Below, in pieces: positions 5,872 through 37,523 of a stretch of DNA of 37,523 nucleotides. The notes below the pieces were generated by a model that saw nothing but the letters and a program-made list of their open reading frames with translations, was not told where the DNA came from and ran no database searches. Origin of the DNA: a virus; IMG/VR virus record IMGVR_UViG_3300021131_000021, positions 1 through 37,523 of that record, one strand, 5' to 3'. The first letter of the stretch is position 1. Every line of letters begins with the position of its first letter. Position numbers and translations under genes: made by a program.

Positions 5872-5943
5872 TGCCCCCGAAGAGATTCGAACTCCTGGCC
5901 TAACGGGTAGAAACCGTCCGCTCTTCCGCTGAGCTACGAGGGC
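5872..5943 (-). tRNA. tRNA-Arg (anticodon TCT)
   Basis: 72-nt cloverleaf: acceptor GCCCTCG/CGGGGGC, anticodon stem GACGG/CCGTT with loop TTTCTAC (anticodon TCT, reads AGA), T-loop TTCGAAT, discriminator A. CCA is not encoded. AGA is favoured by an AT-rich phage and is normally rare in Actinobacteria. It begins right after the stop of the plus-strand oxygenase. Confidence 0.92.
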
Positions 5944-8374: not shown

Positions 8375-8926
8375 TCAGTTATCCATAGGATTGAAATAGT
8401 CCATAACTATAGAGGCTCTTGGCTCCGAAACAACTATTTGATGCATTGTTCCTTTGGGGCAGTAAAAGATATCTCCTGGTTCAAGAATATAAGATTCATA
8501 ATCATCACCGCTATATATTCTCCACTCAACAGTTCCAATGCAATGCCAAGATATAACATCATTTGGATCTTCATGCTTATAGTAATCAGCTTCATGTCCC
8601 GCAAAATTTATGATTGATTTTATATTAAAAAAGTCAATATCCAAGTAAGATCTAAAGAAATCAGAAACACTTTTTAATCCTTTAAGACCATTCTCATCTT
8701 CTTGACTTGCAGCAAAGGCAACGAATGGATCAAGGTAATTATACACCGCAATATCATTTAAATTTCTTCCATGACTATACTGCATTAATTGATCAGAATG
8801 CGCTTTGTTGTACAAGTTATTTATAAAATCTTCCCAGCCTGGCACATTAGAAAAAAGATTTTTTAATAGCAATGGTTTTTTATTTGCACGAGCTTTATTA
8901 AAAGAATCAAGTAAATTATTTTTCAA
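8375..8926 (-). CDS. Cupin/JmjC-like putative 2OG oxygenase
   Basis: 183 residues. A cupin core is visible with a His118-x-Asp120 pair in YKHEDPND, then ISWHCIGTVEWRIY. The turn LEPGDIFYCPKG follows, with distal His162 in GTMHQIV and Arg170 shortly after. This is the arrangement of JmjC/asparaginyl-hydroxylase-like dioxygenases, which hydroxylate peptide side chains. It overlaps the end of the P4H-like gene upstream by 11 nt, so the two oxygenases are almost certainly made together. Plain metal-binding cupin without hydroxylase activity is the alternative. Confidence 0.7.
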   Translation of the reverse strand: MKNNLLDSFNKARANKKPLLLKNLFSNVPGWEDFINNLYNKAHSDQLMQYSHGRNLNDIAVYNYLDPFVAFAASQEDENGLKGLKSVSDFFRSYLDIDFFNIKSIINFAGHEADYYKHEDPNDVISWHCIGTVEWRIYSGDDYESYILEPGDIFYCPKGTMHQIVVSEPRASIVMDYFNPMDN

Positions 8927-9512
8927 CTGGAATCCTTATTGAATTACCTAAATTACTTGACCAAGCATATCTTGATCCTTCAATCATTACTTTAACTCCA
9001 TGCTCACATTTTTCTTCTGAACTATGAATCACTAAATCCCCAGCTTTTGGCTTATAAACAATATTTTGCTTAGAATAAAATATTTCTCCGCCTTTGTAAT
9101 TGTCATTTATATAAACTACAACTCCATATGCTGTATTATGAATTATTTTAAAATCATCACCATCTTTTAGCAGATTAGATTTTTTTCTTATTTCTTGATA
9201 CATAGCATTATCTGAATGCTCTCCCCAAGAATTTCCTTTGACCATTTTTGTAAATAATCTATTTTGCTTAACTTCATATTTATTTGATAAATCAGATAAT
9301 CTTGAAATAATTAACTCAGAGACAATCATTTCGGGGCTTATTTTTGGGCTAATACTTTCATCAACATCGCCCCACATCTTGCCCCAACTTTCTTTTTCAG
9401 AACTTTCCAATAAACCATATATATAGTCGCATTCTTCTTTTGACAAAAAATTTTTATATACATATATATCATCACCCAAAACTGTCAAGTTATTCATGTT
9501 TGTGAGTGGCAT
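8916..9512 (-). CDS. 2OG-Fe(II) oxygenase, P4H-like
   Basis: 198 residues with the iron ligands His99-x-Asp101 (GEHSDN) and His171 (CEHGVK) and the 2OG-binding Arg181 (GSRYAW). YINDNYKGGEIFY is the family strand-turn seen in prolyl-4-hydroxylase-like enzymes, and the N-terminus IYVYKNFLSKEEC is the usual opening helix. ATG at 9512 was chosen over the internal ATG because AGGAG lies six bases before it. The gene is preceded by a strongly folding leader RNA (9530-9650), so it is a candidate for RNA-level control. Confidence 0.85.
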   Translation of the reverse strand: MPLTNMNNLTVLGDDIYVYKNFLSKEECDYIYGLLESSEKESWGKMWGDVDESISPKISPEMIVSELIISRLSDLSNKYEVKQNRLFTKMVKGNSWGEHSDNAMYQEIRKKSNLLKDGDDFKIIHNTAYGVVVYINDNYKGGEIFYSKQNIVYKPKAGDLVIHSSEEKCEHGVKVMIEGSRYAWSSNLGNSIRIPVEK

Positions 9513-9529
9513 AACTTACTCCTAAATTT

Positions 9530-9650
9530 AAGGGCTGTGGGCGAATATTCCAGCACCGAATGACGCTGCCCTATCTCCCCGAACTTTTACGCTGCGGGTA
9601 CATGTTTATGTGTAACTATATCCATACTAAGGTGTGTCGCCCACAACCTT
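9530..9650 (-). ncRNA. Structured 5' leader RNA, unclassified
   Basis: The only sizeable unexplained non-coding gap here folds strongly. On the minus strand AAGG-TTGTGGGCGA (9650-9637) pairs with TCGCCCACAG-C-CCTT (9544-9530): 14 pairs with one bulged C, enclosing 92 nt. Inside are smaller possible hairpins (TACA/TGTA; CCCG/CGGG; CAGC/GCTG) and a repeated pattern GCAGCGT..TTCGG. A TATAAT box at 9656-9661 would start the RNA almost exactly at the first paired base. The oxygenase ribosome site follows seven bases after the helix. It matches no riboswitch class that I recognise; a free sRNA is also possible. Confidence 0.6.
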
Positions 9651-11070
9651 ATACAATTATAGCACTATTATAAGTTTTATTCCATTCATCAATATCATTC
9701 CAATCATTCAATAAAGGTTGACCCTTAATGTTTAAACTAGTGTTAAGAAGAACTGGAACCCCTGTAATTTCATACCATTGCTTTAATACTGAATAAAGAC
9801 CTGGATGTTGCTTGGCATTAACTGTTTGCACCCTAGAAGTCCCGTCTTCGTGAACAACAGATGGAATAAGATCTGGCTTTAAGCATTTAAATGTATATTG
9901 CATGTATGGACTTGTAGCTTTTGATGGAATATCAAACCATTCATGTGCATAGTCTTCCATAACTACAGGGGCAAATGGCCTAAATAATTCTCTTTGTTTA
10001 ATTAAATTCACTTTATCTTTAATGTCTGGATCTCTGGGGTCTGCCAATATACTTCTATTCCCTAAAGCTCTGGGACCAAATTCTGCACGTCCCGCTGCCA
10101 CTGGAGCAATCTTATTGTTAATTAAAGACTGTATCACTTTTTCGACAGGATATTCATTGCCTAAATCGTAGCCAAGATACGGACCTTCCCATTTTATATG
10201 TTCACCCCGCAATGCCAATGCAGCACCCAAACTTGATCCAGCATCTCCTGGATTTGGCATAATCCAAACATCATCAAATAAATCCCATAAAATTGTATTT
10301 GCAGAAGAATTTAATGCACAACCACCCATAAATACAAGTTTTGTTTTCCCAGTCTTCTTTCTTGCATAAGACATAAACTCGTATAGTCTTCTTTCATATA
10401 CAAGCTGAACTGCTGCTGCTATATCAAATTTTTGTTGATCACTAATAATATTCCAATCAGTAATTCCTTTGTGAAAGTTGTATTTTTGCTTATTTATACT
10501 TGGAAAATATTCATTGACTTTATTAAAATATTTATGAGGATTACCATAAGCAGCCATACCCATCATAATATATTCCTCTTGATTAGGCATAAGACCAATT
10601 AACTTTGTAAAAGCTGAATAGAATAGGCCAAAACTTAATGGATAATTTCTTTTTTCTATAAGAGAGATGTTTTCTCCAATACCCGTCCAAATTGTTGATG
10701 TATTAAATTCTCCAATAGCATCTAGCACCACAATTACAGCATCATCAAATGGGCTTGTGTAGTATCCTGCTGCTGCATGAGAGTAATGGTGCTTAAACTC
10801 TTTTGCTTTTATTCCTTTGTGAGCAGGCTTCCAATCGGCTGCCCCACCACGCAACTTAATTCTTAATCTTTTTAGGCGGGATTTTTCATAATAAGCAGCC
10901 TCATCGGGCATACCATAACTAAGTAAATCACGGTATATATCATTATTGTTATACCAATCATTCTTTTTTTTGCTATATCTTTCAGCATGTCCTGCAAACA
11001 AAATATTTTCATCATCAATTAATGCCATGGCAGCATCATGGGATGTTTCATTATAGCCCAATATATTCAT
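9649..11070 (-). CDS. NodU/TobZ-family carbamoyltransferase
   Basis: 473 residues covering the Kae1-like N-terminal domain and the C-terminal carbamoyl-transfer domain. Landmarks are MNILGYNETSHDAA, HHYSHAAAGYY, VIVVLDAIGE, MMGMAAYG, FMGGCALNSSAN, GDAGSSLGAAL, RAEFGPRALGNRSI and LNTSLNIKGQP. The family uses carbamoyl phosphate and ATP to carbamoylate a hydroxyl, classically on sugars or antibiotics. Family members usually exceed 500 residues, so this is slightly compact. It sits between two SGNH/2OG genes, suggesting joint decoration of one target, possibly a hydroxylated one. TAATG junction with the 29-residue gene upstream. Confidence 0.9.
   Translation of the reverse strand: MNILGYNETSHDAAMALIDDENILFAGHAERYSKKKNDWYNNNDIYRDLLSYGMPDEAAYYEKSRLKRLRIKLRGGAADWKPAHKGIKAKEFKHHYSHAAAGYYTSPFDDAVIVVLDAIGEFNTSTIWTGIGENISLIEKRNYPLSFGLFYSAFTKLIGLMPNQEEYIMMGMAAYGNPHKYFNKVNEYFPSINKQKYNFHKGITDWNIISDQQKFDIAAAVQLVYERRLYEFMSYARKKTGKTKLVFMGGCALNSSANTILWDLFDDVWIMPNPGDAGSSLGAALALRGEHIKWEGPYLGYDLGNEYPVEKVIQSLINNKIAPVAAGRAEFGPRALGNRSILADPRDPDIKDKVNLIKQRELFRPFAPVVMEDYAHEWFDIPSKATSPYMQYTFKCLKPDLIPSVVHEDGTSRVQTVNAKQHPGLYSVLKQWYEITGVPVLLNTSLNIKGQPLLNDWNDIDEWNKTYNSAIIV
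9656..9661 (-). promoter_or_regulatory. -10 element for the structured leader
   Basis: TATAAT lies in the last codons of the carbamoyltransferase, placing the start near 9649-9650, the first base of the long helix. The -35 region (TGGAAT) is weak. Confidence 0.5.
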
Positions 11071-11159
11071 TAGTATATGAACCTATCTTTGTTTTTTTTA
11101 AAATGCTTTATTATTTTACGCACATAAATATAAATATCATACCAGATTTCTTTCATCAT
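11070..11159 (-). CDS. 29-residue basic peptide
   Basis: A very short frame with ATG at 11159 preceded by GGAGG at ideal distance. It ends in a TAATG junction with the carbamoyltransferase start. The peptide is basic and amphipathic (KEIWYDIYIYVRK, then IIKHFKKNK). It overlaps the SGNH gene end by 23 nt. It may be a real microprotein or merely a coupling leader for the carbamoyltransferase; the start signals are stronger than chance. Confidence 0.45.
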   Translation of the reverse strand: MMKEIWYDIYIYVRKIIKHFKKNKDRFIY

Positions 11160-12183
11160 AATCCTCCAATGCCTCTAGAAATGACTCTGCCCAGTGTACG
11201 TGAACATGCACACCAGAGTGCCCATGCTCTCTTCCCTCTGTGGAATCTGGGTTTCTATCAAATGGAATATCAAAATTATTGCCATAAATTTTTCTTAAAT
11301 CTGAATGACAATCGGTATATGTGCTGCAAGGACCACTACTTGTTTTATGACATTTTTGTGCATCTGCATTATCATGAAATCTTTCCATCATATCATCTTC
11401 TTTATGGGCATGCCAACCATTTAAATTTAATTTAACAAAATTTCTAAAATTATTAAACTTACTTAAATTTTTAGATATCATGTCCATCTGACCCTCTTCC
11501 CATGTTGACCAGAGGAGCTTTATATTATTAGTGTTGCAGTACATTTCTAAAATTTTTATCATTCTTATTGCTTCTACAATCGCAGCTTCTTTGGGGTATA
11601 TATTAATAATTTCATGTGGTTTTTTTGAGTACTTCATTTCTTCTTGTCTGGTAAGTATTAAATCCACAATCTGGACATCATCATCAGAGTGAAAGTTTGC
11701 GCTTATATTGTTTTTATTTACATATAATTCTTTTCTTAAAAAATCTGGAAATAAACACATTATAATTTTAGGATTTCCATAAATTCTACAATAATTAAAA
11801 ATTTCATTAATAATTGAAGCCGTTGATCTTCCAGTTTTTCCCAAATTATATGATTTTAAGCCTAATCTTTCTGATACTATATTTCCCCAAATTCCTTCTT
11901 TTACAACTCCATGCCCATAAGTAAAAGAGCAACCCGCAAAGATAAAATCTCTAGGCTCAACAAATTCATCGCACCGATATCCATTTGAATTTGGCTGAAG
12001 CATACTTGCAATTTCTTTTACAGTTTTTTTCTCTCGTGCTCTATAAACAGTTTCAATATGTTTTTGCGAAAAATATGGATGATTTTCATCATAAACGCCT
12101 GGATGCTCTGAGGTATTTATCTTTAAATTTGCTTCATTATAAGAATCAATATTATTTAAAATATCTTCATTAAAACGAGGCAT
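11137..12183 (-). CDS. SGNH-like hydrolase/transferase domain protein
   Basis: 348 residues from ATG at 12183, chosen because GGAAGGA precedes it and the longer frame runs into tRNA-Ile. Block I is DFIFAGCSFTYGHGV (Ser86), the form seen in phage and marine SGNH proteins. It is followed by YNLGKTGRST, a block II Gly, and NPKIIMCLFPD. The C-terminal GVHVHVHWAESF could give the catalytic His. The acidic and Cys/His-rich insert near 290-320 is unusual. Likely acts on acyl or sugar-linked esters; close coupling with carbamoyltransferase hints at a shared carbohydrate or protein substrate. Confidence 0.7.
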   Translation of the reverse strand: MPRFNEDILNNIDSYNEANLKINTSEHPGVYDENHPYFSQKHIETVYRAREKKTVKEIASMLQPNSNGYRCDEFVEPRDFIFAGCSFTYGHGVVKEGIWGNIVSERLGLKSYNLGKTGRSTASIINEIFNYCRIYGNPKIIMCLFPDFLRKELYVNKNNISANFHSDDDVQIVDLILTRQEEMKYSKKPHEIINIYPKEAAIVEAIRMIKILEMYCNTNNIKLLWSTWEEGQMDMISKNLSKFNNFRNFVKLNLNGWHAHKEDDMMERFHDNADAQKCHKTSSGPCSTYTDCHSDLRKIYGNNFDIPFDRNPDSTEGREHGHSGVHVHVHWAESFLEALEDYDERNLV

Positions 12184-12197
12184 AACATTCCTTCCAG

Positions 12198-12272
12198 TAT
12201 GGGAGGTGGGATTTGAACCCACGATACACAGCTTATAAGACTGCTTCCAAAACCAAGCTAGGATACTCCCAT
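12198..12272 (-). tRNA. tRNA-Ile (anticodon TAT)
   Basis: 75 nt: acceptor ATGGGAG/CTCCCAT, anticodon stem GCAGT/GCTGT with loop CTTATAA (anticodon TAT, reads AUA), T-arm GTGGG/CCCAC, discriminator A, no encoded CCA. A UAU anticodon avoids the need for lysidine modification. AUA is a rare codon in most Actinobacteria. Confidence 0.88.
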
Positions 12273-12277
12273 GTGCT

Positions 12278-12508
12278 CTAGTTTTCAGATCCTATAAGTC
12301 TATCTTGTATTAGTTTATCACGCTCATCAACAATTTCAAATGCGTAATCTTTAAGCTTTTCCTCATATTTGTTGTAGTGATGGCCACAGAACAATAGCTC
12401 TCCCGCCACCCCATTTACCCAAACTAAAGCTTCAGCAGAGCAAGAATCGCAGCGATCTTGGGGGCCAAGCACATAAGATTTAACTTCTTGTGTTTCTTCT
12501 GCCATCAT
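12278..12508 (-). CDS. DUF7455-like actinobacterial Zn protein
   Basis: Short protein (76 residues from the third ATG) with DRCDSCSAEALVWV and ELLFCGHHYNKYE, the Cys/His pattern of the small DUF7455-type proteins that I know from Actinobacteria. The four ligands (CxxC and CxHH) fit one zinc. Start at 12508 was chosen because a TATAAT box ends seven bases before it; the longer ATG at 12514 would lie upstream of the expected transcript start. Role unknown in hosts and phages. It sits inside the tRNA cluster, between Lys and Ile. Confidence 0.72.
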   Translation of the reverse strand: MMAEETQEVKSYVLGPQDRCDSCSAEALVWVNGVAGELLFCGHHYNKYEEKLKDYAFEIVDERDKLIQDRLIGSEN

Positions 12509-12515
12509 ATTCATA

Positions 12516-12521
12516 ATTATA
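12516..12521 (-). promoter_or_regulatory. -10 element, leaderless start
   Basis: TATAAT seven bases before ATG 12508. The -35 is weak (TATTAA at 17 bp). Confidence 0.5.
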
Positions 12522-12550
12522 CTCTTTCTAGTAGTTTATTAATAATCTAG

Positions 12551-12623
12551 TGTCTCCAGTTGGGCTCGAACCAACGACCCGCAGATTAAAAGTCTGCTGC
12601 TCTACCAACTGAGCTATAGAAAC
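12551..12623 (-). tRNA. tRNA-Lys (anticodon TTT)
   Basis: 73 nt: acceptor GTTTCTA/TGGAGAC, anticodon stem GCAGA/TCTGC, loop CTTTTAA (anticodon TTT), T-loop TTCGAGC, discriminator A, no CCA encoded. It reads AAA, abundant in this AT-rich genome. Confidence 0.93.
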
Positions 12624-12628
12624 ATTAG

Positions 12629-12702
12629 CGATCCGTATCGGACTTGAACCGACGACCTTTGCCGTGACAGGGCAACGCTCTAACCAACTGAGCTAACGGA
12701 CC
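12629..12702 (-). tRNA. tRNA-Asp (anticodon GTC)
   Basis: 74 nt: acceptor GGTCCGT/ACGGATC, anticodon stem TTGCC/GGCAA with loop CTGTCAC, T-loop TTCAAGT, discriminator G as expected for Asp; CCA not encoded. Confidence 0.93.
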
Positions 12703-12703
12703 T

Positions 12704-12779
12704 TGGCTGGGATGGTAGGGGTCGAACCTACGACATTTCGATTAACAGTCGAACGCTCTGCCTGCTGAGCTACATCCCA
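12704..12779 (-). tRNA. tRNA-Asn (anticodon GTT)
   Basis: Acceptor TGGGATG/CATCCCA, anticodon stem TTCGA/TCGAA with loop CTGTTAA, T-loop TTCGACC, discriminator G followed by an encoded CCA (12706-12704), the only one of the five tRNAs with it. It leads the run Asn-Asp-Lys, separated by a few bases, so a single precursor is likely. Confidence 0.93.
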
Positions 12780-16721: not shown

Positions 16722-16995
16722 TTCGCATCATCTCCATCATTTCAATCTTGTCTGATATTTTTTGAGAATTTTGACATGAATAACATATCTTGTCCTCGTT
16801 ATATCTACTTAACTCAGAATTACAATTTTTTCCCGAACAAATTCTTTTTTTGCCAGCCAATCTATCTTTTTTTGCATAGTATGCTGCACGTAATTTTTCG
16901 TTAGTAGCAATTCTACAATGCTCATCAGAACAATATTTCATGTTATGTGTTCTTGGCTCAAACTCTTGACCACATTTATCATATGCACATATCAC
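16693..16995 (-). CDS. Double zinc-finger-like small protein
   Basis: 100 residues with a CAYDKCGQEF...YCSDEHC module at 3-27 and a second CSGKNC...CYSC module at about 53-75, separated by a basic helix (KLRAAYYAKKDRLAGKKR). The first module is like the HNH-associated or plasmid-type treble clefs found in phage proteins. DNA or RNA binding is probable. It overlaps the glycosyltransferase upstream by four bases (ATGA) and ruvC downstream by 29. Confidence 0.7.
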   Translation of the reverse strand: MICAYDKCGQEFEPRTHNMKYCSDEHCRIATNEKLRAAYYAKKDRLAGKKRICSGKNCNSELSRYNEDKICYSCQNSQKISDKIEMMEMMRSVIGKTGKK

Positions 16996-17708
16996 AAATT
17001 TACCTCCTCAAGCCAAAGCCAGTCATGATCTTCTCTGAATGAAGAAGATTTTGTTTGGTGAAACATACTTTCATCACAATGCATTCCATTAATACCTATG
17101 TGGTTAGATCTTGATGCTAATGGATTTATATTTTTTAGTCCATTATTTGGAAGCAATCTTAAATTTAAATGCCAATCCCAGCCATTATGAACTGGATCTG
17201 AAGAGTAATCTTTGTCCCAGTTAGGTCCAAAATAATCATCCCAATACTTCCTCCAAGTTCCCCAAACAAGGCCGTTAAAGCCTTGTTCACGTATTACCGC
17301 TGTTGGATCTGTTGTATCCCACTTTGTATTGGCTGAAATGACAGCTATTTCATTATCATCACGGTACATTTTTTCAAGAGTATCAAAATATCTTAATACA
17401 TCTTTGGACACGACAACATCATCTTCTGCTAATATCACAAAGTCATATTTTTTGAATAAATCAGTAAAGCCTCTCCAAGTATTACCGCCAGTCCCCAGAA
17501 CTTTATCGTTGTAATGTATGCTAAAATTAACATCTGCTTTATCCTCAAAGCTATATATTAAGTCTGTAATTTGCTTAGATACATTACTAGGCTCTACATA
17601 AAAACAAAAATCATATTCTTCCTTTTGATCTACGTTAATCCAGCTTTCTAAGGTTTCACGAAGATAATCTACACGGTCAAATACTGTAAATAAAACTGCT
17701 TTCTTCAT
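16992..17708 (-). CDS. GT-A fold glycosyltransferase (GNT-I/POMGNT-like)
   Basis: 238 residues starting KKAVLFTVFDRVDYLRETLESW, a GT-A nucleotide-binding opening. The metal-binding motif is AEDDVVVS (Glu-Asp-Asp, about residue 93-96), as in GNT-I type N-acetylglucosaminyltransferases; NGLVWGTWRKYWDDYFG follows, with SRSNHIGINGMH near the end. It probably adds a sugar from a nucleotide donor to a phage or host molecule. It lies between the Cas4-like nuclease and a Zn-finger gene with four-base overlaps on both sides. Acceptor unknown. Confidence 0.78.
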   Translation of the reverse strand: MKKAVLFTVFDRVDYLRETLESWINVDQKEEYDFCFYVEPSNVSKQITDLIYSFEDKADVNFSIHYNDKVLGTGGNTWRGFTDLFKKYDFVILAEDDVVVSKDVLRYFDTLEKMYRDDNEIAVISANTKWDTTDPTAVIREQGFNGLVWGTWRKYWDDYFGPNWDKDYSSDPVHNGWDWHLNLRLLPNNGLKNINPLASRSNHIGINGMHCDESMFHQTKSSSFREDHDWLWLEEVNL

Positions 17709-19396: not shown

Positions 19397-19579
19397 CTAT
19401 TCTAGTATTCTTACTACAAATTGGCAGGGATCCCCGCCATCTTCCCATTCTTTTGCTTCCTCTTCAGATATTGGTTCAATTCCATCATGAGTAGCACATG
19501 TTACATCAGAAATCCAACCCTTCTCAAGCCCTTGGCTAAACCAAACTTGAAAATCATCAATATTTGTTTCATCAATCAT
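19397..19579 (-). CDS. Hypothetical small protein
   Basis: 60 residues from ATG at 19579, overlapping the stop of the DUF6065-like gene by 8 nt; a longer upstream start is less likely. Acidic (EEEAKEWEDGGD), with two Cys (VTCATHDG and DPCQFVV) separated by 23 residues. It ends in a beta-like FVVRILE. No family recognised. It closes the DUF6065/oxygenase block and precedes the peroxidase by 10 nt. Confidence 0.6.
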   Translation of the reverse strand: MIDETNIDDFQVWFSQGLEKGWISDVTCATHDGIEPISEEEAKEWEDGGDPCQFVVRILE

Positions 19580-20273
19580 CTTGATTCCTATCACTATAAT
19601 TTACATTTAAATTTAACTTTTTTATTTCATGGGCACCTATAGTTTTACCTAAGTGATCAATGCCTTTTTGATAAAGCTTTAAAAATTTGCCTTCTTTTTG
19701 GGCATCTTTTAATGCTTTTGTATAATTTTGATCTCCATGTACATGCCTAAACGGAAAAGTTTTATCATGAATATTTATTGTAGAATCATGAAATTGAGCT
19801 ATTGAAATAGGAATTATGCATGCCACGTAAGTTCCAGCTGGCACAAAATATTCTTTATGTGGCACTTCTAGCTTCCAAACTACTGGTAGAACGGAACTAA
19901 AAAAAGAAGTTGATAATATATTTGAAATTACAGTAACATCTTCTATTGGTTGATTTGGAACTGGTATGGTAAGTAAGCTTGTATTTTCATCAGTTTTAAA
20001 TAACAAGTTAGTATCAAAACTTACAGTACCGCCACCACGCAATTCACGTACAACATTCTCTCCCTTTAATGCCCTAGCTGGAACTTCTGTATCTCCGTCC
20101 CAAATAAAGGAAAGATCTTCCTCAAAGTATATCCCATAGCCAAATGTGTTTGCTGCAACAACTGGAGTGCAATTATAAATTGTATTCTCCATCCATTCTC
20201 TTTTTACCTTAAGCTGCTCTATTTTTGCAGTAGGAAGAGATGGATTGTTAACATAAACATCAACGCTATACAT
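19572..20273 (-). CDS. DUF6065-like protein, copy C
   Basis: 233 residues. Family marks: KREWMENTIYNCTPVVAAN, then GYGIYF...SFIWDGD, a Gly-rich turn before VSFDTNLLFKT, PVPNQP, and VPAGTYVACIIPI. These match the uncharacterised DUF6065 family, whose fold looks like a beta-rich barrel; no activity is known to me. It is clearly related to the copies at 21167-21871 and 22172-22870, closest to the former (both have AKIEQLK and ANTFGYG). A P4H-like oxygenase separates the two. Confidence 0.78.
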   Translation of the reverse strand: MYSVDVYVNNPSLPTAKIEQLKVKREWMENTIYNCTPVVAANTFGYGIYFEEDLSFIWDGDTEVPARALKGENVVRELRGGGTVSFDTNLLFKTDENTSLLTIPVPNQPIEDVTVISNILSTSFFSSVLPVVWKLEVPHKEYFVPAGTYVACIIPISIAQFHDSTINIHDKTFPFRHVHGDQNYTKALKDAQKEGKFLKLYQKGIDHLGKTIGAHEIKKLNLNVNYSDRNQDD

Positions 20274-20280
20274 TTTAAAC

Positions 20281-21174
20281 CTAATCTATTATCTTGATTG
20301 CTTCATCTAATTGTACCAGTTTACCCCGCACTATGTCCACTTTTTCTCCAGGAAATTGAAGTGTGACTGCGTGAGTATAATTAGCTACAAAATCATCTAC
20401 TTTCTTTTGCTGCTTTTCCATAAAATCTTTGTCCTGTGTAATATTATTTTTTTCCCATTCTTTATCTCCAAATGAAAAGTAAGGTATAAATATTCTCATG
20501 AAATATCTGTCTGCTCCAGAGAAGTGCTCGACTGCATGATAAAAAGGAGCTGCTGAAGGAAATACTGTTACATCTCCCTTTCTTGGCTTATATTTATAGG
20601 CTTTATTCTCACTCTCATCATAGAAGCATATCTCTCCTCCATCATAATCGTCATTTGGATAAAAGGTAATTGTCACAACTTGATGAGCTGGTCTTTCATC
20701 ACGTGCTTCCTCTGGCATTTCATCAACATGATACTCCAGCATCAAGCCTTCACGGTTAATGCTTTCAAAATGCTCATTACTATACTTATATATATTGATA
20801 TGCACTGGGTCAAGCTTTTCCCAAACTTTATCCCACTGCTTTATATATTGAGGCCATACGCCTTTGTCACCTGCATACTCAGATAAATAATCTTTTTGAA
20901 TAAAATCATAGACTTCCATAATATGTCGCAAGATCTTTTTTTCAAGAGCCATATCTTCTGAATCATCACTTTTTTCTTGAAATTGATCTCTATTGAACAA
21001 TTGATTAATATTCAATCCTTGTTGATACCAGGGCTCCCACTGTGGCCATAACGAGTTATCTTTTGATTTACTTTCAACTACTTTTATCAACTCATCACAA
21101 TACTGCAAAAAATTTTTATAAATTACGATTTGTGGAGCAACTATTATTTTTTCAACTTCATCTGAATTAATCAT
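20281..21174 (-). CDS. 2OG-Fe(II) oxygenase, P4H-like
   Basis: 297 residues, longest of the oxygenases here. Iron ligands His149-x-Asp151 (EYHVDE) and His213 (FYHAVEHF), with Arg223 for 2-oxoglutarate. FYPNDDYDGGEICFYD and KPRKGDVTVFPS are the P4H-like strand and turn. The N-terminal 120 residues form a longer helical cap than in its relatives, and a C-terminal extension of about 65 residues follows the core. It lies between two DUF6065 copies, overlapping the upstream one by 8 nt, so a joint pathway is likely. Confidence 0.87.
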   Translation of the reverse strand: MINSDEVEKIIVAPQIVIYKNFLQYCDELIKVVESKSKDNSLWPQWEPWYQQGLNINQLFNRDQFQEKSDDSEDMALEKKILRHIMEVYDFIQKDYLSEYAGDKGVWPQYIKQWDKVWEKLDPVHINIYKYSNEHFESINREGLMLEYHVDEMPEEARDERPAHQVVTITFYPNDDYDGGEICFYDESENKAYKYKPRKGDVTVFPSAAPFYHAVEHFSGADRYFMRIFIPYFSFGDKEWEKNNITQDKDFMEKQQKKVDDFVANYTHAVTLQFPGEKVDIVRGKLVQLDEAIKIID

Positions 21175-21871
21175 TTTTCTCCTTATAAATATAGTTTACC
21201 TTCATGTCAAAATTTTCAACTTCATGAGTTCCAATTTTTTCACCTAGATGATTTATTCCTCTTTCATACAATCTTAAAAACTTTTTTTCTTTTTGTCCAG
21301 CTCTTAGGGCATCTAAATATTCTTTTTGCTGATGAATAGGCTTTTCTTCTAAATATTCGTCTGGATGAATATTTATTTCTGTCTCTTGAAATGTTGCTAA
21401 AGATATGGGCAAAAGTGCAGCCACATAGGTACCTGCTGGAATAAAATATTTATGGTTTGCTTTTTGTAATTTCCAAACTATTGATATATTTGATGTAAAG
21501 AAAGATGTAGACAAAAGGCTAGTCAGAACAGTAGCATCTTTTAATTCTTGATTTGGAACGGGCATTGTTAATAGACTTGTATTCTCGTCTGTTTTAAATA
21601 CTAAATTTGTATGGAAACTTACAGTACCTGCACCTCTATCCTCACCTATAATTTCTTTTCCCAAAATAGCTTCTGCTGGATGAAGCACATCTCCATCCCA
21701 AGTAAAAGATATGTCCTGATCAAAATAAACACCATAGCCAAAGGTATTAGCTAGCGACAAAGGTGTACAGTGGTATATGGAGTGATGCATCCAATCCCGC
21801 TTCATTTTTAACTGTTCTATTTTTGCGGTTGATTGACTTCTATCATCTGGATACGCTTCTACTTTATACAT
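21167..21871 (-). CDS. DUF6065-like protein, copy B
   Basis: 234 residues with KRDWMHHSIYHCTPLSLAN, GYGVYFDQDISFTWDGD, GAGTVSFHTNLVFKT, PVPNQE, and IPAGTYVAALLPISLA. Nearly every conserved block aligns with copy C without gaps, pointing to a duplication within the phage lineage. The C-terminal part (about 175-234) with LRLYERGINHLGEKIG is also shared. Function unknown. Overlaps the PD-(D/E)XK-like gene by 8 nt upstream and the 2OG oxygenase by 8 nt downstream. Confidence 0.78.
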   Translation of the reverse strand: MYKVEAYPDDRSQSTAKIEQLKMKRDWMHHSIYHCTPLSLANTFGYGVYFDQDISFTWDGDVLHPAEAILGKEIIGEDRGAGTVSFHTNLVFKTDENTSLLTMPVPNQELKDATVLTSLLSTSFFTSNISIVWKLQKANHKYFIPAGTYVAALLPISLATFQETEINIHPDEYLEEKPIHQQKEYLDALRAGQKEKKFLRLYERGINHLGEKIGTHEVENFDMKVNYIYKEKND

Positions 21872-22172
21872 TTTTTTCTTCCCATGCTTCTACCATTTGC
21901 TCAAATAATGCCCATTCAATTACTGCGAGTCTAGTTTTTTGACCCTCTCCTCCAAGGATAAGTTTAAGAACTGGGTATTTATCCCTAGAGACCTTAAACG
22001 TATCCGTGCAAATTTTAGCCCAAATTTCCTTACTAATGGATATTGATTTTGCATACTCTTTATAATCAACGACAAAATCATGCCAGATCGCATCGCCCTT
22101 TTGATAATCCCCACGCCCAGAATTTTTTTGGCCTTTTGCTTTATCACGCTTTATTTCTCCACGCTCTGACAT
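21864..22172 (-). CDS. Small PD-(D/E)XK-like nuclease candidate
   Basis: 102 residues: a basic start (ERGEIKRDKAKGQKNSGRG), then YQKGDAIWHDFVVDYKEYAKS, where GDA-Asp and Asp-Tyr-Lys could be the PD...(D/E)xK metal site. ISKEIWAKICTDTF and KLILGG..KTRLAVIEW follow. This layout recalls small phage Holliday-junction-type or penetrating nuclease proteins. The catalytic assignment rests on motif spacing only. It is embedded between two DUF6065 copies with overlaps of 1 and 8 nt. Confidence 0.5.
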   Translation of the reverse strand: MSERGEIKRDKAKGQKNSGRGDYQKGDAIWHDFVVDYKEYAKSISISKEIWAKICTDTFKVSRDKYPVLKLILGGEGQKTRLAVIEWALFEQMVEAWEEKNV

Positions 22173-22870
22173 TATTTTTTACCCTCAACTGTTTTTAAGT
22201 TTAAATATTTAACTTCATGTTCGCCAATTTTTTCTTTCTTATGATTCCATGCGTTTCTATAAAATCCAGCAAGATCTGGTGCGTATCTGGAATCCTCCAT
22301 TGCTTTAGCATAATCTTCATTATATACTGAAAAATCTCGCTCAGACCAATCAAAAATATTTATTACAGAATCATTTAGTTCCGTAAAAGATATTGGCAAA
22401 ATTGATGCTACAGGAGTTTTTGCTGGTATGGTAATTATTTCATTTGCTTTTAAAATTTTTACACCAAATCTTATGGCATCGTGATAAAAAGATGTGGATA
22501 AAGTTGCAGAAATTACAGCCCAACTATCAGAAAATTGATTTGGTACAGGCATAATAAAAATACTTACCCTATCTTTTGTTTTTAAGCTAAATTGCGTGTT
22601 AAAAGATATAGTTCCATTATCAGCAACATCTATATATTGTGACCCAGACAAGATCTTAACGTGGTCTTGAAAATTTTCATCTTCTCCGTCCCAAATAAAA
22701 GATATGTCTTCTCCAAAAGATACGCCCCATCCTACTAGATTAGCTGATGAAATAGGTAGGCATTTATAGGCAGACTTATGAGAAGATTTATCAAAAAAAT
22801 CTCTTTTTGTAGTCAACGGTTCTAACATTACACTACGGTCATCCATATATGCATCTATTGAATAAGCCAT
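22172..22870 (-). CDS. DUF6065-like protein, copy A
   Basis: 232 residues. It keeps the family blocks (SAYKCLPISSANLVGWGV, SFIWDGE, GTISFNTQFSLKT, MPVPNQF, IPAKTPVASILPISF) but is more divergent than copies B and C and is closer in wording to the cellular DUF6065 form (AYxCLP...GW). That suggests A resembles the ancestral acquisition and B/C arose later, which is inference. Ends one base before the PD-(D/E)XK-like gene start. Function unknown. Confidence 0.75.
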   Translation of the reverse strand: MAYSIDAYMDDRSVMLEPLTTKRDFFDKSSHKSAYKCLPISSANLVGWGVSFGEDISFIWDGEDENFQDHVKILSGSQYIDVADNGTISFNTQFSLKTKDRVSIFIMPVPNQFSDSWAVISATLSTSFYHDAIRFGVKILKANEIITIPAKTPVASILPISFTELNDSVINIFDWSERDFSVYNEDYAKAMEDSRYAPDLAGFYRNAWNHKKEKIGEHEVKYLNLKTVEGKK

Positions 22871-33611: not shown

Positions 33612-33641
33612 ATTATACTACTAGGTGTTTTGTTTTGTCAA
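33612..33641 (-). promoter_or_regulatory. Consensus promoter for phosphoesterase
   Basis: TTGACA (33641-33636), 18 bp, TATAAT (33617-33612), leader of about 19 nt containing AAAGGA. Both hexamers are perfect; -35 overlaps the end of the HNH gene. Confidence 0.85.
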
Positions 33642-33898
33642 GCTACATGAGCTTTATTATGTTCTATTCTTGAACATAGAAAAAGATTGATTAATCTATT
33701 ATCAGTTTTATCATGATTAATATGATGAATAGTTTCCCAGTCTTCGATTGTTCTGTTTAGTTGTTTTTCTATTATTAGGCGGTGTTCATAGTACCAGCCT
33801 TTAAAATTTTTAGGATGCTCAGGTACTTTTATAAGTACATATCCTTCTTTACTGATCCTTCTATCACGTTTCGTCCAAAACCTGATAGGCTGATACAT
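33638..33898 (-). CDS. HNH endonuclease, homing-type
   Basis: 86 residues from ATG at 33898. It has GYVLIKVPEHPKNFKGW and YEHRLIIEKQLNR, then TIHHINHDKTDNRLINL, the His-His...Asn...HNH core of small phage homing endonucleases (class with YxxEHR and HHxDxxxxNN-like motif). Such genes are usually selfish insertions between phage genes. Start placed after the stop of the upstream gene; the longer frame upstream has no ribosome site. Confidence 0.83.
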   Translation of the reverse strand: MYQPIRFWTKRDRRISKEGYVLIKVPEHPKNFKGWYYEHRLIIEKQLNRTIEDWETIHHINHDKTDNRLINLFLCSRIEHNKAHVA

Positions 33899-33899
33899 G

Positions 33900-34307
33900 T
33901 TATAGTTTTTCTCCTTCTGGATGAACAAAAATTTCTTTTTGTCCTACCTTAATGATTTCACTATCAAGCCATTCTAGCACATCGGGATCAATTACATGGC
34001 GACGTTTTGAATCGCTTATAAGATATATTCTACCATCTGATATGTCATGGATCAAACTTCCATCACGGAATCCTAAAACTCCCGCCGTAGAAAAGTTGAC
34101 AAGCATTGCTTCTGAAGTTTCAACAATTGGTAATGACCAAGATTGCATCGCTTTATCTGAAACAAATTTAAAACGCTTGTTACCCTTAATATAAAAATAT
34201 CCCTTTTCGGTATGTGCTATCAATCCGCTAGGGACGGCGGGATTGTGTTGTTTTTTTAGCTTTTTCTTTTGTGACTTGATTAGCTTCAACTTTTTTGCCC
34301 TTTTCAT
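33900..34307 (-). CDS. Structural-like protein with 'KRRHVIDPDVLEWL' domain
   Basis: Up to 135 residues. From about residue 95 a repeat-like domain reads GRIYLISDSKRRHVIDPDVLEWL...EIFVHPEGEKL, a module I know from phage tail- or cell wall-associated proteins. The Lys-rich first 28 residues overlap the coiled-coil gene by 80 nt and look like noise. A TTG at 34223, just after that gene's stop, would give a 107-residue protein beginning at IAHTEKG and is an equally good start. Neither start has a clear ribosome site. Confidence 0.6.
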   Translation of the reverse strand: MKRAKKLKLIKSQKKKLKKQHNPAVPSGLIAHTEKGYFYIKGNKRFKFVSDKAMQSWSLPIVETSEAMLVNFSTAGVLGFRDGSLIHDISDGRIYLISDSKRRHVIDPDVLEWLDSEIIKVGQKEIFVHPEGEKL

Positions 34308-34564: not shown

Positions 34565-35509
34565 CTATCTTCTTGGTGGCATACCATATCCACGGCTTTC
34601 TATATCTACATGAAAATAATAATTTTCATTATTAATCATATACCTTTTTTCTATTCCAGTCAAGTTAAAAAACTCTTCAACTTTATTTAAAGGTACATCT
34701 TCAAGGCCAGACATTAGCCTAGAAGTAAAATTAGTTTGTTTTTCAACATGTTCCCAGTAAGCATTTTTTCTATCATCTGACCAAGGCCTCAAACTTCTTC
34801 TTGTAATAACTCCATCTGGCTGTTGATGAGACATGTGGTGAAAAGTATCTCTTGATCCAACACCAAAAATTTTCCAACCCTTGCTGTACGTTCTTAAAGA
34901 CAAGCTGAACTCTTCAGTATTAAATGAAGAATCTTTACTTATTCCAACTTCTTCAACCCATTCATAAGGGGCAAAAAGATAACAGCATGTAACCCAGTAC
35001 CCAGCTTTTACCTGATTAGCTTCTAGAGTATGGTAGCCTGGAAAATTAAATCCAGGAATAAATCCTTTATACTCTTCAGCAATCATTGACATTTTTGGAT
35101 CTACTTCATAATTAATGCTGCCGTCTTGATTTATTTCATAATTTGCTGGGCAGTAAGATATTATATATTTATCTTCAGATATAGAGTTATATGTATATAG
35201 AGCATTTGCGTCCCAGCCCTTACTAGATAATGTGTGAGAATCAAACTGAATTAAATAATCATATTTAAAATCTACGGATACGGCAAGATTTCTTGCCCAC
35301 GCCACACCGCCCCTATATACACTTGCATCAAAATGACGATATAAAAGTTGATCAGATGGCATAAAGCTAAAATCATGGATTTTGCTATCTTCAGAAACAA
35401 GAGAAAAAAACAGGTTTTCTTTATTTGCAGAATTATTCCACAAATCTTTTACTGTAGAATAAAATTCTGGATCACAGTAGTTTACAATACTTACGAGTAT
35501 TTTTTTCAT
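34565..35509 (-). CDS. GlcNAc-type glycosyltransferase (Skp1 Gnt1-like family)
   Basis: 314 residues. RGGVAWARN (66-74), QFDSH (88-92) and GWD (98-100) reproduce the order R-G-V-x-W-A-R ... Q-x-D-S-H ... G-W-D of the GlcNAc transferase family that includes Skp1 Gnt1. QFDSH is the metal-binding DxD-type site. NTEEFSLSLRTYSKGW follows as the catalytic acidic region, and HHMSHQQP near 225. In eukaryotes this family adds GlcNAc to hydroxyproline. It directly follows two P4H-like genes with 2-3 nt spacing, which makes modification of a hydroxylated residue attractive; that link is inference. Confidence 0.82.
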   Translation of the reverse strand: MKKILVSIVNYCDPEFYSTVKDLWNNSANKENLFFSLVSEDSKIHDFSFMPSDQLLYRHFDASVYRGGVAWARNLAVSVDFKYDYLIQFDSHTLSSKGWDANALYTYNSISEDKYIISYCPANYEINQDGSINYEVDPKMSMIAEEYKGFIPGFNFPGYHTLEANQVKAGYWVTCCYLFAPYEWVEEVGISKDSSFNTEEFSLSLRTYSKGWKIFGVGSRDTFHHMSHQQPDGVITRRSLRPWSDDRKNAYWEHVEKQTNFTSRLMSGLEDVPLNKVEEFFNLTGIEKRYMINNENYYFHVDIESRGYGMPPRR

Positions 35510-35511
35510 AA

Positions 35512-36054
35512 CTATCTCCTGTTTTTTATAATATCAGCATCTACATAATCTGGTCCGTTTTTAAAATACCAGTGATCCTCATCGGCAAAATGAAAAAATA
35601 TCATTGCAACTTTATTTTTTTGAGGCATAGGAAAATTATTTCTCCAGTGCTCTTGATCATTGCCGTAATATGCCAATGCTTCATTTGGAAAGAGTGTATA
35701 GGGGTTTCCTTCAACCCATAAGTCCCAAGCGTAATTTTGGTATAAACAAAAATCTATCGTATACGTGCAAGCATTATCATCTTTATGCTTCCATAGCTTT
35801 GCGTTCTCCCCACTATATTGTGCAAATAATGCATAAGTTGGAAGCAATGTTGGTGCATCAAATATCTCTCTAGCCAAACTAGTCAGGCTTTCAAAATAAT
35901 ATTGCAGCTCTCTTACATCGTTTTGATCTGCAACATGCCTTGAAAAATGTGGATCAAAGTTAAAAGTAGCCACCCTATCTTTACTAAAAGTTTTTAAAAG
36001 GTTTTTAAAATCTTCTTTATTAAAGACATCAATTATTTTTTGAGGTGGCTTCAT
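35512..36054 (-). CDS. 2OG-Fe(II) oxygenase-like protein
   Basis: 180 residues. The double-stranded beta-helix reads LFAQYSGENAKLWKHKDD, giving His90-x-Asp92, then WDLWVEGNPYTLFPNEALAY, then EHWRN with His136 and Arg138. This is the compact 2OG oxygenase pattern with a HWR close; a later FFHFADEDHWYF adds another His pair. It differs from the P4H-like genes in lacking the NDDY-GGE turn. Three bases separate it from the P4H-like gene upstream and two from the glycosyltransferase, so all three are one operon. Confidence 0.75.
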   Translation of the reverse strand: MKPPQKIIDVFNKEDFKNLLKTFSKDRVATFNFDPHFSRHVADQNDVRELQYYFESLTSLAREIFDAPTLLPTYALFAQYSGENAKLWKHKDDNACTYTIDFCLYQNYAWDLWVEGNPYTLFPNEALAYYGNDQEHWRNNFPMPQKNKVAMIFFHFADEDHWYFKNGPDYVDADIIKNRR

Positions 36055-36057
36055 ATA

Positions 36058-36654
36058 CTACCTCAACCAGCTTACAACAGAGTATCTTGTTCCAGATATT
36101 ACTGGACTTACAGAATGGTTATATGTATATATTGATGGAAATAAAATAAAGTCATTTGCTTCTGGCTTTATTGATAAATTAAAGCTGGGGAAATTAATCT
36201 CCCCACCAGCATAATCATCATTCATGTAAAATAAAGTTGATATTCTTCTATGATAAGCAATACTATCATCAATATGATTGCTGAAGTGTTGACCTACGCC
36301 ATACTTTAAAATACCCCATTGATCATGCCATTCAGTTTCTATTCCAAAAAAAGACTTGTATTCTTGCTCACAAGGAGTAAATGCTTCAAAAAAAACGTTG
36401 TTTAATGTTTTATAAAAAGAATCCTGAAAGTTTTGATAATCCTCGTTTTTACCACCCAAATATGGAACAGCCATAGAGTCTGTATCTCTAATAAACTTAT
36501 TTATGCTTTCTTCTTTATTTGTCCTTACTGCGGATGCAGCCCAAGAAGCTGTTCTGTGATCAACACAATCTTCAATTTCCTTGATAAGATCTTTTGACTC
36601 TGGCAAAACATTTTTGTATATAAATATTCCTGGAGCGATAATATGTTTTTCCAC
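36058..36654 (-). CDS. Prolyl-4-hydroxylase-like 2OG oxygenase
   Basis: 198 residues. Iron ligands His127-x-Asp129 (SNHIDD) and His180 (YNHSVSP), 2OG Arg190 (SGTRYSV), and the P4H-type turn YMNDDYAGGEINFP. The N-terminus IFIYKNVLPES is the family entry helix. Length and layout resemble viral and bacterial P4H enzymes, which act on proline-rich peptides. Two genes upstream on the same strand lies a proline-rich repeat protein, an obvious candidate substrate. Starts one base after the Zn protein gene ends. Confidence 0.87.
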   Translation of the reverse strand: MEKHIIAPGIFIYKNVLPESKDLIKEIEDCVDHRTASWAASAVRTNKEESINKFIRDTDSMAVPYLGGKNEDYQNFQDSFYKTLNNVFFEAFTPCEQEYKSFFGIETEWHDQWGILKYGVGQHFSNHIDDSIAYHRRISTLFYMNDDYAGGEINFPSFNLSIKPEANDFILFPSIYTYNHSVSPVISGTRYSVVSWLR

Positions 36655-36655
36655 G

Positions 36656-36892
36656 TTACCATTTTTCCATTGGGCAGACAGCTGATTGTATTTTTGTTTT
36701 TACAGCCATAAAGCATCCACACTTTTTACATTGTTTTGTCAATCTTATTAGCTCTGGGCATGCTTTGCATATTTCAAATCTTCTACTTGATTCTTCATCG
36801 GTGCTCCATTCAGTATTTGGATTTAACATGTCCCAAGGCCTAGTATCGCCAATCTTTTCTTTATATTTTTGCCAAGCACTTTTTTCTTCCAT
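36656..36892 (-). CDS. DUF6171-like zinc protein
   Basis: 78 residues. RRFEICKACPEL, TKQCKKCGCFMAVKTK and AVCPMEKW give the Cys pattern CxxC, CxxCxC, C, shared with small phage proteins of DUF6171 type. The N-terminal third is Trp/Asp-rich and acidic. Its role is unknown; in phages it often precedes structural or modification genes. One base after the stop of the 144-residue gene and one before the P4H-like gene. Confidence 0.72.
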   Translation of the reverse strand: MEEKSAWQKYKEKIGDTRPWDMLNPNTEWSTDEESSRRFEICKACPELIRLTKQCKKCGCFMAVKTKIQSAVCPMEKW

Positions 36893-36893
36893 T

Positions 36894-37328
36894 TTATGCT
36901 ATCCCTTCTGGATCGTAAAATTTTTCACCATCGTACTTCCAACCAATATTTATAAATTGTTCTGGATCTGCTTCAACCTTTGTTGGATTGTCCATTATTT
37001 GTTCTAAAGTTTTTTCAAAAGTTGGACTATTAGTAGGCCATTTTATAAATGCAGCCACATCTTCATCCACGACAAAGATAACCCTTATAACAGAGCTGTT
37101 TTCAGGATAAAGACTTTTATCCCATGGCTTTCCATCTGGATCAATTAAAGTATCGTTGATGTACTTCCAGCCATATTCAGCTGGACAATTACCGTCTATC
37201 TGTATAAGCCTTGGATTTGAATCAATAGCAGCCATCATCATTTCTTCAAGATAATTTTCGCTATCTAACAAAAATGGAAAAATAACTTCATTATCTTTAT
37301 TTAAATAAATAATATGTCTCTTGGTCAA
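36894..37328 (-). CDS. Structural-like protein with duplicated WKY motif
   Basis: 144 residues from TTG at 37328; AAGGAGACGG lies eight bases before it and no ATG fits. Two copies of a short motif, GWKYINDTLIDPDGK (about 53-67) and GWKYDGEKFYDPEG (at the C-terminus), flank a beta-rich centre. Such G-W-x-Y...DPEG elements are typical of tail-tip, fibre and fibre-assembly proteins. It may accompany the proline-rich protein upstream. Driven by its own promoter at 37349-37377. Confidence 0.62.
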   Translation of the reverse strand: MTKRHIIYLNKDNEVIFPFLLDSENYLEEMMMAAIDSNPRLIQIDGNCPAEYGWKYINDTLIDPDGKPWDKSLYPENSSVIRVIFVVDEDVAAFIKWPTNSPTFEKTLEQIMDNPTKVEADPEQFINIGWKYDGEKFYDPEGIA

Positions 37329-37348
37329 GCCCCGTCTCCTTTTTCTTC

Positions 37349-37377
37349 ATTATATCACTTACTACTATTTTATTCAA
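37349..37377 (-). promoter_or_regulatory. Promoter for the hydroxylase/glycosyltransferase operon
   Basis: TTGAAT (37377-37372), 17 bp, TATAAT (37354-37349) with an extended TGA before it. Begins just after the stop of the proline-rich gene, so the modification genes can be made independently of it. Confidence 0.72.
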
Positions 37378-37523
37378 TTAGCATATCCTAGTACTACATA
37401 CACCATTGATACAAACACAGTTGCATCCCGAACATTTGGCAGGTGGGGTTGGAGCTGGTGGCGTTGGGGCTGGTGGCGTTGGGGCTGGTGGCGTTGGGGC
37501 TGGTGGCGTTGGAGCAGGCGGGG
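37378..37523 (-). CDS. C-terminus of a proline-rich, Cys-tailed protein (truncated)
   Basis: Minus-strand frame, 5' end beyond the right edge, stop TAA at 37378-37380. The visible 48 residues are (APTPP)5-type repeats followed by AKCSGCNCVCINGVCSTRIC. Ala-Pro and Thr-Pro repeats resemble extracellular linkers; the six-Cys end could be a disulfide knot or metal site. The 15-base repeat stays open in all frames, but this frame gives a coherent Cys-rich ending and a stop directly before the next promoter. Most likely a virion surface, tail or cell-wall-binding protein. It is the candidate substrate for the downstream P4H and glycosyltransferase. Confidence 0.65.
   Translation of the reverse strand, partial: PPAPTPPAPTPPAPTPPAPTPPAPTPPAKCSGCNCVCINGVCSTRIC
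37439..37523. repeat. 15-bp tandem repeat array, open at the right edge
   Basis: Units of GCTGGTGGCGTTGGG (plus strand): three perfect at 37454-37498, one with a final A at 37499-37513, a diverged unit at 37439-37453 and a partial unit 37514-37523. On the minus strand each unit encodes A-P-T-P-P. The array is far more GC-rich than its surroundings. The full length is unknown because it leaves the window. Confidence 0.9.

Follow-up and report, generated by a model that had tools for sequence, protein, structure and literature searches.

Why would a phage carry a proline-rich repeat gene next to two putative prolyl hydroxylases and a glycosyltransferase (GT)? The question is raised by the IMG/VR virus record IMGVR_UViG_3300021131_000021, a fragment of 37,523 bases that was analysed at its full length and is called the window here. 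Its right edge holds, on the minus strand (34565-37523), the end of a gene with (APTPP)n repeats, two proteins resembling 2-oxoglutarate (2OG)-Fe(II) oxygenases (OG1 and OG2) and a GT resembling Gnt1, the N-acetylglucosamine (GlcNAc) transferase of Skp1; all four had been claimed in the original prediction, and all four are present. Here we propose that these genes are one form of a modular cassette by which phages would post-translationally modify the proline-rich stalk of a tail protein.

Conservation of the gene order

Loci of relatives were collected from IMG/VR from three starting points, namely the GT (41 viral relatives, or 49 with an alignment-based search), OG2 (the best 80 of 414 relatives, picked regardless of GT or repeat) and the repeat DNA, and individual compared loci are designated by L-numbers (e.g. 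L051). The contigs overlap between the sets, the counts ignore phylogeny, and because the contigs are fragments, a missing gene says little. For the main tally, OG2 and GT loci were pooled and clustered at <90% identity, giving 46 loci with at least 2.5 kb of upstream sequence, and a gene was called P-rich if its product contains a 30-residue stretch with 12 or more Pro, a chosen threshold.

Nearly all of the GT loci with enough upstream sequence share the order P-rich gene, DUF6171, (OG1), OG2, GT, and full-length counterparts of the window's repeat gene stand directly upstream of the same cassette genes. In 44 of the 46 non-redundant OG2 loci, OG2 is preceded by a P-rich gene in the same orientation, and DUF6171 is present in 44, OG1 in 37 and a GT of the PF11397 family in 17; downstream of OG2 a P-rich gene occurs in 0/56 loci, and none is antisense. 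The two exceptions are L061, whose (SPV)n array is weaker, and L095, which has a Ser/Thr/Cys repeat and lacks OG1 while keeping OG2. Dozens of divergent viral contigs share this order, which puts the arrangement far beyond chance, and the conserved neighbourhood proposed as a check on the prediction is borne out. In the opposite direction, (APTPV)n DNA alone strongly predicts the oxygenases: OG1 or OG2 lies within 4.5 kb downstream in 63 of 65 loci (26 of 27 non-redundant groups).

Such synteny might simply reflect shared ancestry within a single phage lineage, the genes being functionally unconnected, and many of the loci are indeed near-identical contigs of the same phages. However, OG2 falls into 62 clusters at <90% identity, with identities to the window OG2 down to 37%, and occurs in several genome backgrounds (a tail-fibre block, an actinophage replication block, portal-adjacent and endolysin-adjacent). 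The window's kin also differ between the same flanks, with parts swapped or lost. The L051 cassette carries an epimerase, an O-fucosyltransferase (O-FucT)-like gene, one unassigned gene and a carbamoyltransferase after OG2, the L075 cassette has no sugar genes, and the L041 cassette has a GT-DUF6171 fusion, no oxygenases and a Thr/Ser-rich tail repeat. We consider descent without function to be highly improbable.

The oxygenases

OG1 (36058..36654, minus strand) is a prolyl-4-hydroxylase (P4H)-like 2OG-Fe(II) oxygenase (PF13640, E 3e-16). The residues earlier taken to mark it as P4H-like (His127, Asp129, His180 and Arg190) are kept across an alignment of 13 sequences, in which H127, D129 and H180 are invariant and position 190 is always R or K. 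A profile search of the PDB gave Bacillus P4H as the best match (3itq/5hv0, E 5e-11), with P4H, P3H1, PKHD-type enzymes and PHD2 at lower ranks, and OG1 looks like a prolyl hydroxylase by these sequence relationships.

OG2 (35512..36054, minus strand; phrog_2954) is the most constant cassette enzyme, and was recognised by fold and motif as a second protein of the 2OG oxygenase type. When the three enzymes were searched with Pfam profiles, as the prediction had proposed, OG1 matched PF13640 and the GT matched PF11397, while OG2 had no Pfam match. The proposed His90, Asp92 and His136 of OG2 are nevertheless invariant in 17 sequences, and Foldseek searches with its predicted model (predicted local distance difference test score, pLDDT, 90) placed human PHD2 and Pseudomonas putida P4H at the top of the list (E 3e-7 to 5e-7, template modelling score 0.56-0.66), so that OG2, too, looks like a putative prolyl hydroxylase as modelled. 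The PHROG labels "ferrochelatase" and "DNA endonuclease" attached to such oxygenases (phrog_2954, phrog_3531, phrog_2297, phrog_274) were rejected as mis-labels because the proteins concerned either match PF13640 or have the fold of 2OG oxygenases. Sequence searches of the PDB with OG2 and the GT gave no match, and among INPHARED phages OG2 had one weak match only, in cyanophage S-SM1, and the GT had none. A search of 84,980 GTDB genomes gave no relatives of OG2 or the GT, and so identified neither a cellular version nor a host.

The folds of 2OG oxygenases serve many substrates, and OG1 and OG2 might modify Cys-rich knobs, as AspH does with EGF domains, or free sugars rather than prolines. 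Many of the proline arrays are accompanied by such knobs, and in L095 OG2 persists alongside a Cys/Ser/Thr-rich repeat, without a proline array. On the other hand, L041 has a Cys-rich tail but no oxygenase, the nearest relatives of the oxygenases by both sequence and fold are prolyl hydroxylases, and (APTPV)n DNA on its own predicts their presence as described above. These points make a knob or free-sugar target very improbable, and the array prolines remain the favoured substrate.

The proposed substrate protein

The repeat gene in the window (37381..37523, minus strand; assigned by sequence and frame) consists of an (APTPP)5 array followed by a Cys-rich C-terminal tail, as the prediction had described. 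The array, running from 37523 down to approximately 37440, reads PPAPTPPAPTPPAPTPPAPTPPAPTPPA and is followed by KCSGCNCVCINGVCSTRIC and a stop codon. Codon differences within the array, read from the DNA, are confined to third positions, and an origin of the (APTPP)n array as a chance repeat was rejected. The open reading frame (ORF) on the plus strand at 37321-37521 (WGWWRW) was discarded, being the antisense of the repeat.

In relatives, full-length P-rich proteins exceed 1,000 residues and comprise N-terminal tail-fibre-like or Ig/Fn3-like regions (in some, short GxW motifs are repeated), long arrays of Ala-Pro (AP), Thr-Pro (TP) or Val-Pro (VP), and Cys-rich knobs. Pfam searches of these proteins gave PASTA and weak matches only, and no Pfam tail domain. 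The P-rich gene comes after tail-like genes in L051, L053 and L075, and tail-fibre PHROGs are found near the cassette in other loci; judged by the domains and neighbours of these relatives, the repeat gene appears to encode part of a putative tail protein.

The array in the window is of the APTPP type, and the arrays upstream of OG2 and the GT are mostly of TP, AP or VP types. In 69 distinct P-rich proteins the residue preceding an array proline is T in 58%, A in 24%, P in 6%, S in 3% and V in 2% of cases. Approximately 84% of array prolines thus come after T, A or S, a composition of the arabinogalactan-protein type; the arabinogalactan glycomodules of plants are defined by these X-Pro dipeptide arrangements (PMC5266747). 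The likeness is one of sequence composition, not of descent. Of the earlier interpretation, the single conserved cassette, the prolyl-hydroxylase-like oxygenases and the tail-like repeat gene stood, but the "collagen-like" analogy was wrong: the arrays have no Gly-X-Y, their X-Pro dipeptides are of the plant arabinogalactan-protein type, and the label was dropped for the stalk. A separate collagen-like Gly-X-Y gene was seen only in L061 (L061:2160-2894), about 4 kb upstream of a cassette with a weaker-than-usual proline array.

Several variants of P-rich proteins were also observed. Two have a terminal Hint/intein-like domain (L028:7012-8733, with a weak PF14890 match, and L012:4556-5914), others contain (FFPP)n arrays, and L133-L150 are small (129-214 aa) (APTPP)n-array proteins on other viral contigs without the cassette.

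The glycosyltransferase and the sugar modules

The GT (34565..35509, minus strand) belongs to the PF11397 (GlcNAc) family of GT-A glycosyltransferases (E 2.5e-19, 70.4 bits against a cut-off of 21), a family which we take to contain Gnt1. The RGGVAWARN...QFDSH...GWD pattern by which it had been assigned to the Skp1 Gnt1 family holds up in an alignment of 15 sequences, where the QFDSH core, the Gly pair and Ala-Arg of RGGVAWARN and the Trp-Asp of GWD are invariant; the DxH/DxD metal-site motif expected of the GT-A fold is present as an invariant D90-S-H92. In the viral library the best matches are uncharacterised "Glycosyltransferase, GlcNAc" proteins of uncultured phages, and the best structural matches of the predicted model (pLDDT 81) by Foldseek are the mucin-type polypeptide N-acetylgalactosamine (GalNAc) transferases (E 7e-10, ~14% identity).

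Sugar genes after OG2 vary between loci, and this variability, like the gene order with its conservation and the folds and motifs, is a direct observation. Across 69 loci they include a short-chain dehydrogenase/reductase epimerase (30), a PF11397 GT (26), and O-FucT-like and Mannosyl_trans3-like genes (14 each, with weak Pfam matches), and in fewer loci a carbamoyltransferase, a UDP-glucose dehydrogenase, a nucleotidyltransferase (NTP transferase) or a methyltransferase. In 10 of the 69 loci, some of them truncated, there is no sugar gene within 6 kb of OG2. These gaps and the variability itself would suit a situation in which the oxygenases act on the stalk, and the GT and downstream sugar genes act elsewhere (on host envelope glycans, capsid or DNA), having been placed there by a cargo hotspot in the tail region; galE, moreover, is frequent in environmental phages and has been read as a metabolic gene (PMC9301287). 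Against this, the GT directly follows OG2, often with overlapping ends, in nearly all of the distinct GT loci with a proline array, and the DUF6171-GT fusion binds the GT to the cassette. A target away from the stalk is improbable on this evidence.

Assuming that the GT acts on the stalk, which residue accepts the sugar? The weak point of the original prediction is this acceptor, since Thr is a live rival to hydroxyproline. In the mucin-type alternative, a branch of the same stalk-modification proposal, the GT would add sugar to Thr (or Ser) residues of Thr-Pro or Thr/Ser-rich segments, and the oxygenases would hydroxylate proline only for stiffness, without formation of a hydroxyproline glycoside. 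Besides the structural matches to polypeptide GalNAc-transferases, Thr makes up at least 16% of each array paired with a PF11397 GT. L041, from a phage closely related to that of the window (87% identity in the DNA polymerase, 92% in the helicase), keeps the GT as a GT-DUF6171 fusion with a Thr/Ser-rich repeat and has no oxygenase (PF13640) in its 34.9-kb fragment, which argues for a Thr/Ser acceptor there. The acceptor of the Trypanosoma cruzi polypeptide GlcNAc-transferase is Thr. The GT60 family, which the phage GT resembles, is home to that enzyme as well as to a hydroxyproline-specific one (PMC6939170).

Two observations run the other way. Among distinct GT loci, OG2 is present in 15/15 with a strong proline array and in 0/3 without one (L012, L038 and L041, the array-less loci with enough upstream sequence), an association (exact p ~0.001, ignoring kinship, and with L041 sharing its GT with the L040 row) that is easier to explain if hydroxylation feeds the GT. 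PF13640 genes do occur elsewhere in L012 (one) and L038 (several). Secondly, the arrays of L105 and L106, the latter (APAPIPVP)n, contain at most 1% Thr, yet their cassettes are complete with OG1, OG2 and O-FucT-like genes; these sequences argue for a hydroxyproline acceptor in those two loci, though not for the PF11397 GT family. We regard the mucin-type alternative as rather unlikely, and tentatively favour hydroxyproline as the acceptor of the window GT.

As a separate observation, a relative of the GT occurs in L038 and L039 next to multiple 2OG oxygenases, a DUF6065-like protein and a product resembling a tryptophan halogenase, with no P-rich gene.

Proposed pathway

In the proposed pathway, the substrate would be a tail protein with N-terminal tail, fibre or Ig/Fn3-like domains, AP/TP/VP arrays that probably form a polyproline-II stalk, and small knobs rich in Cys. 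Hydroxylation of the array prolines would fall to OG1 and OG2, DUF6171 would probably recruit the enzymes to the substrate, and interchangeable sugar enzymes would then decorate the stalk. In the window this enzyme would be the PF11397 GT, whose sugar would probably go onto the hydroxyl groups of newly formed hydroxyproline, Thr of Thr-Pro being the less probable acceptor. The phage would likely benefit by gaining, at its adsorption end, a glycan coat that is stiff, variable and resistant to proteases. Hydroxylation of the array prolines is highly likely in our assessment and glycosylation of the stalk quite likely, and it is probable that the stalk undergoes both, whichever residue takes the sugar. 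As a more tentative proposal, phages may run a complete hydroxyproline-O-glycosylation pathway, in which the hydroxylating enzymes, as a constant core, create the acceptor, and the swapping of sugar modules changes the glycan carried by an arabinogalactan-like stalk.

A number of points weigh against this proposal. The repeat gene in the window is truncated: it is cut by the contig end, and its 5' part and N-terminus are absent, only the final ~46 codons being present. Only 2 of 10 (APTPP)3 loci and 11 of 73 (TP)8 loci have OG1 or OG2; simple TP runs are widespread in viruses, most of them without such enzymes nearby, and a generic (TP)n array was discarded as a poor cassette marker, the cassette being found in only 11/73. 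L075, L058, L111 and others have a proline array and oxygenases with no nearby sugar enzyme, L041 retains the GT in the oxygenase-free setting described above, and L095, with OG2 but no proline array, indicates that the target of OG2 may differ. In OG2 the usual place of the 2OG-binding Arg/Lys is mostly Asn (N147), with an invariant R138 near H136; since H90, D92 and H136 are invariant yet this place is mostly Asn, catalysis by OG2 is likely but not certain. Finally, every chemical step, the acceptor residue, the role of DUF6171 and the location in the virion are what we infer from the genes.

Other genes of the cassette and the window

Two genes between the repeat gene and OG1 had been left out of the original prediction, one of them a conserved cassette member. 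The DUF6171 protein (36656..36892, minus strand; PF19668, E 3e-7) is Cys4 and zinc-ribbon-like; its presence upstream of OG2 in 44/46 loci and its fusion to the GT in L040/L041 point to a likely accessory or recruiting domain. A 144-aa ORF (36894..37328, minus strand) lies between the repeat gene and DUF6171, with no Pfam match and a weak match in L087. Small proteins hold this position in L051 and L075, and a tail-fibre chaperone would be a guess.

The window phage is probably an actinophage, since its DNA polymerase is ~56% identical to those of Streptomyces phages such as BillNye. The window also encodes a terminase, DnaB helicase, primase and UvsX-like recombinase, and five tRNA genes (Arg, Ile, Lys, Asp and Asn) at 5871-5943 and 12197-12779. 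An HNH endonuclease (33638-33928) is 81-91% identical to the L051/L041 copies and more conserved than its neighbours, suggesting possible homing.

A Nol-type carbamoyltransferase (9649..11070, minus strand; phrog_1601, E 8e-100) may be a detached part of the same glycan pathway, because it is 78% identical to the copy in the L051 cassette; part of the pathway may then lie apart in the window genome. The adjoining gene (11137..12222, minus strand), whose product has no Pfam match, is a homologue (25-31% identity, blastp E 1e-19 to 6e-21) of a gene at or near the carbamoyltransferase in the L051 and L106 cassettes, and could possibly, on this weak similarity, be another pathway part. Both belong to a block (8375-12222) that also includes a JmjC/cupin gene (8375-8926) and a 2OG oxygenase (8916-9512), and homologues of the genes in this block occur within P-rich cassettes of other phages. 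Elsewhere in the window, three DUF6065-type genes surround a PF13640 oxygenase (20281-21174) at 19572-22870, a pairing also seen in cassettes L100 and L103, and a second glycosyltransferase (16992-17708) matches the GNT-I family (PF03071, E 1.4e-7).

Implications and comparison with known systems

A Baltic Sea virus survey found P4HA and galE among the most abundant supposed auxiliary metabolic genes, and noted that the viral use of P4H "remains cryptic" (PMC9301287). The cassette would provide a concrete answer, in which the phage's own tail protein is modified instead of host metabolism. If correct, it would explain the frequency of prolyl-hydroxylase ("P4HA") and galE genes in aquatic viruses; exchangeable sugar modules would let related phages alter their coat quickly, giving another route to variation of the outer surface; and the cassette would offer a naturally occurring, gene-encoded means of producing hydroxylated and glycosylated proline polymers in bacteria. 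A search of open-licence papers did not find a linked phage cassette of this kind.

To our knowledge, no hydroxyproline-O-glycosylation pathway has been known outside eukaryotes and their viruses. The closest known system is the Skp1 pathway of Dictyostelium and Toxoplasma (PhyA and Gnt1, GT60), where hydroxylation and glycosylation are established (PMC11570480). Both systems combine a prolyl hydroxylase, putative in the phage, with a glycosyltransferase, as cytoplasmic enzymes. The Skp1 enzymes, however, act on one proline of a ubiquitin-ligase subunit in oxygen sensing, whereas the phage substrate would be a repetitive tail stalk. Plant arabinogalactan proteins share with the phage proteins the long arrays of Ala-Pro, Thr-Pro and Ser-Pro and the P4H-type enzymes, but are secreted plant proteins, with unrelated sugar transferases and presumably an independent origin.

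Among viruses, Mimivirus L230 is a bifunctional collagen lysyl hydroxylase-glucosyltransferase. As in our proposal, hydroxylation and then glycosylation of a viral repetitive protein are virus-encoded, although the target is lysine in collagen, the two activities reside in a single protein and the virus is eukaryotic. Chlorovirus PBCV-1 likewise encodes a P4H, for which proline-rich viral sequences serve as peptide substrates, and we know of no linked cassette in this case. This precedent is weaker than had been claimed, as hydroxyproline was not detected in purified PBCV-1 particles, according to an entry in the reference list of a review (PMC7019647, ref. 162).

Actinophage virion proteins with glycans are also found in mycobacteriophages, where we know of no associated oxygenases or proline arrays. 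There, the glycosylation was described for capsid and tail-tube C-termini (Freeman et al. 2023, as cited in PMC12619734). The mucin-type GalNAc-transferases (GT27), the best structural matches of the phage GT, differ from it in the low identity (~14%), and the phage protein is single-domain. What is new lies in the placement of known pieces, peptidyl-proline hydroxylation and glycosylation, in a new setting and in a new modular form.

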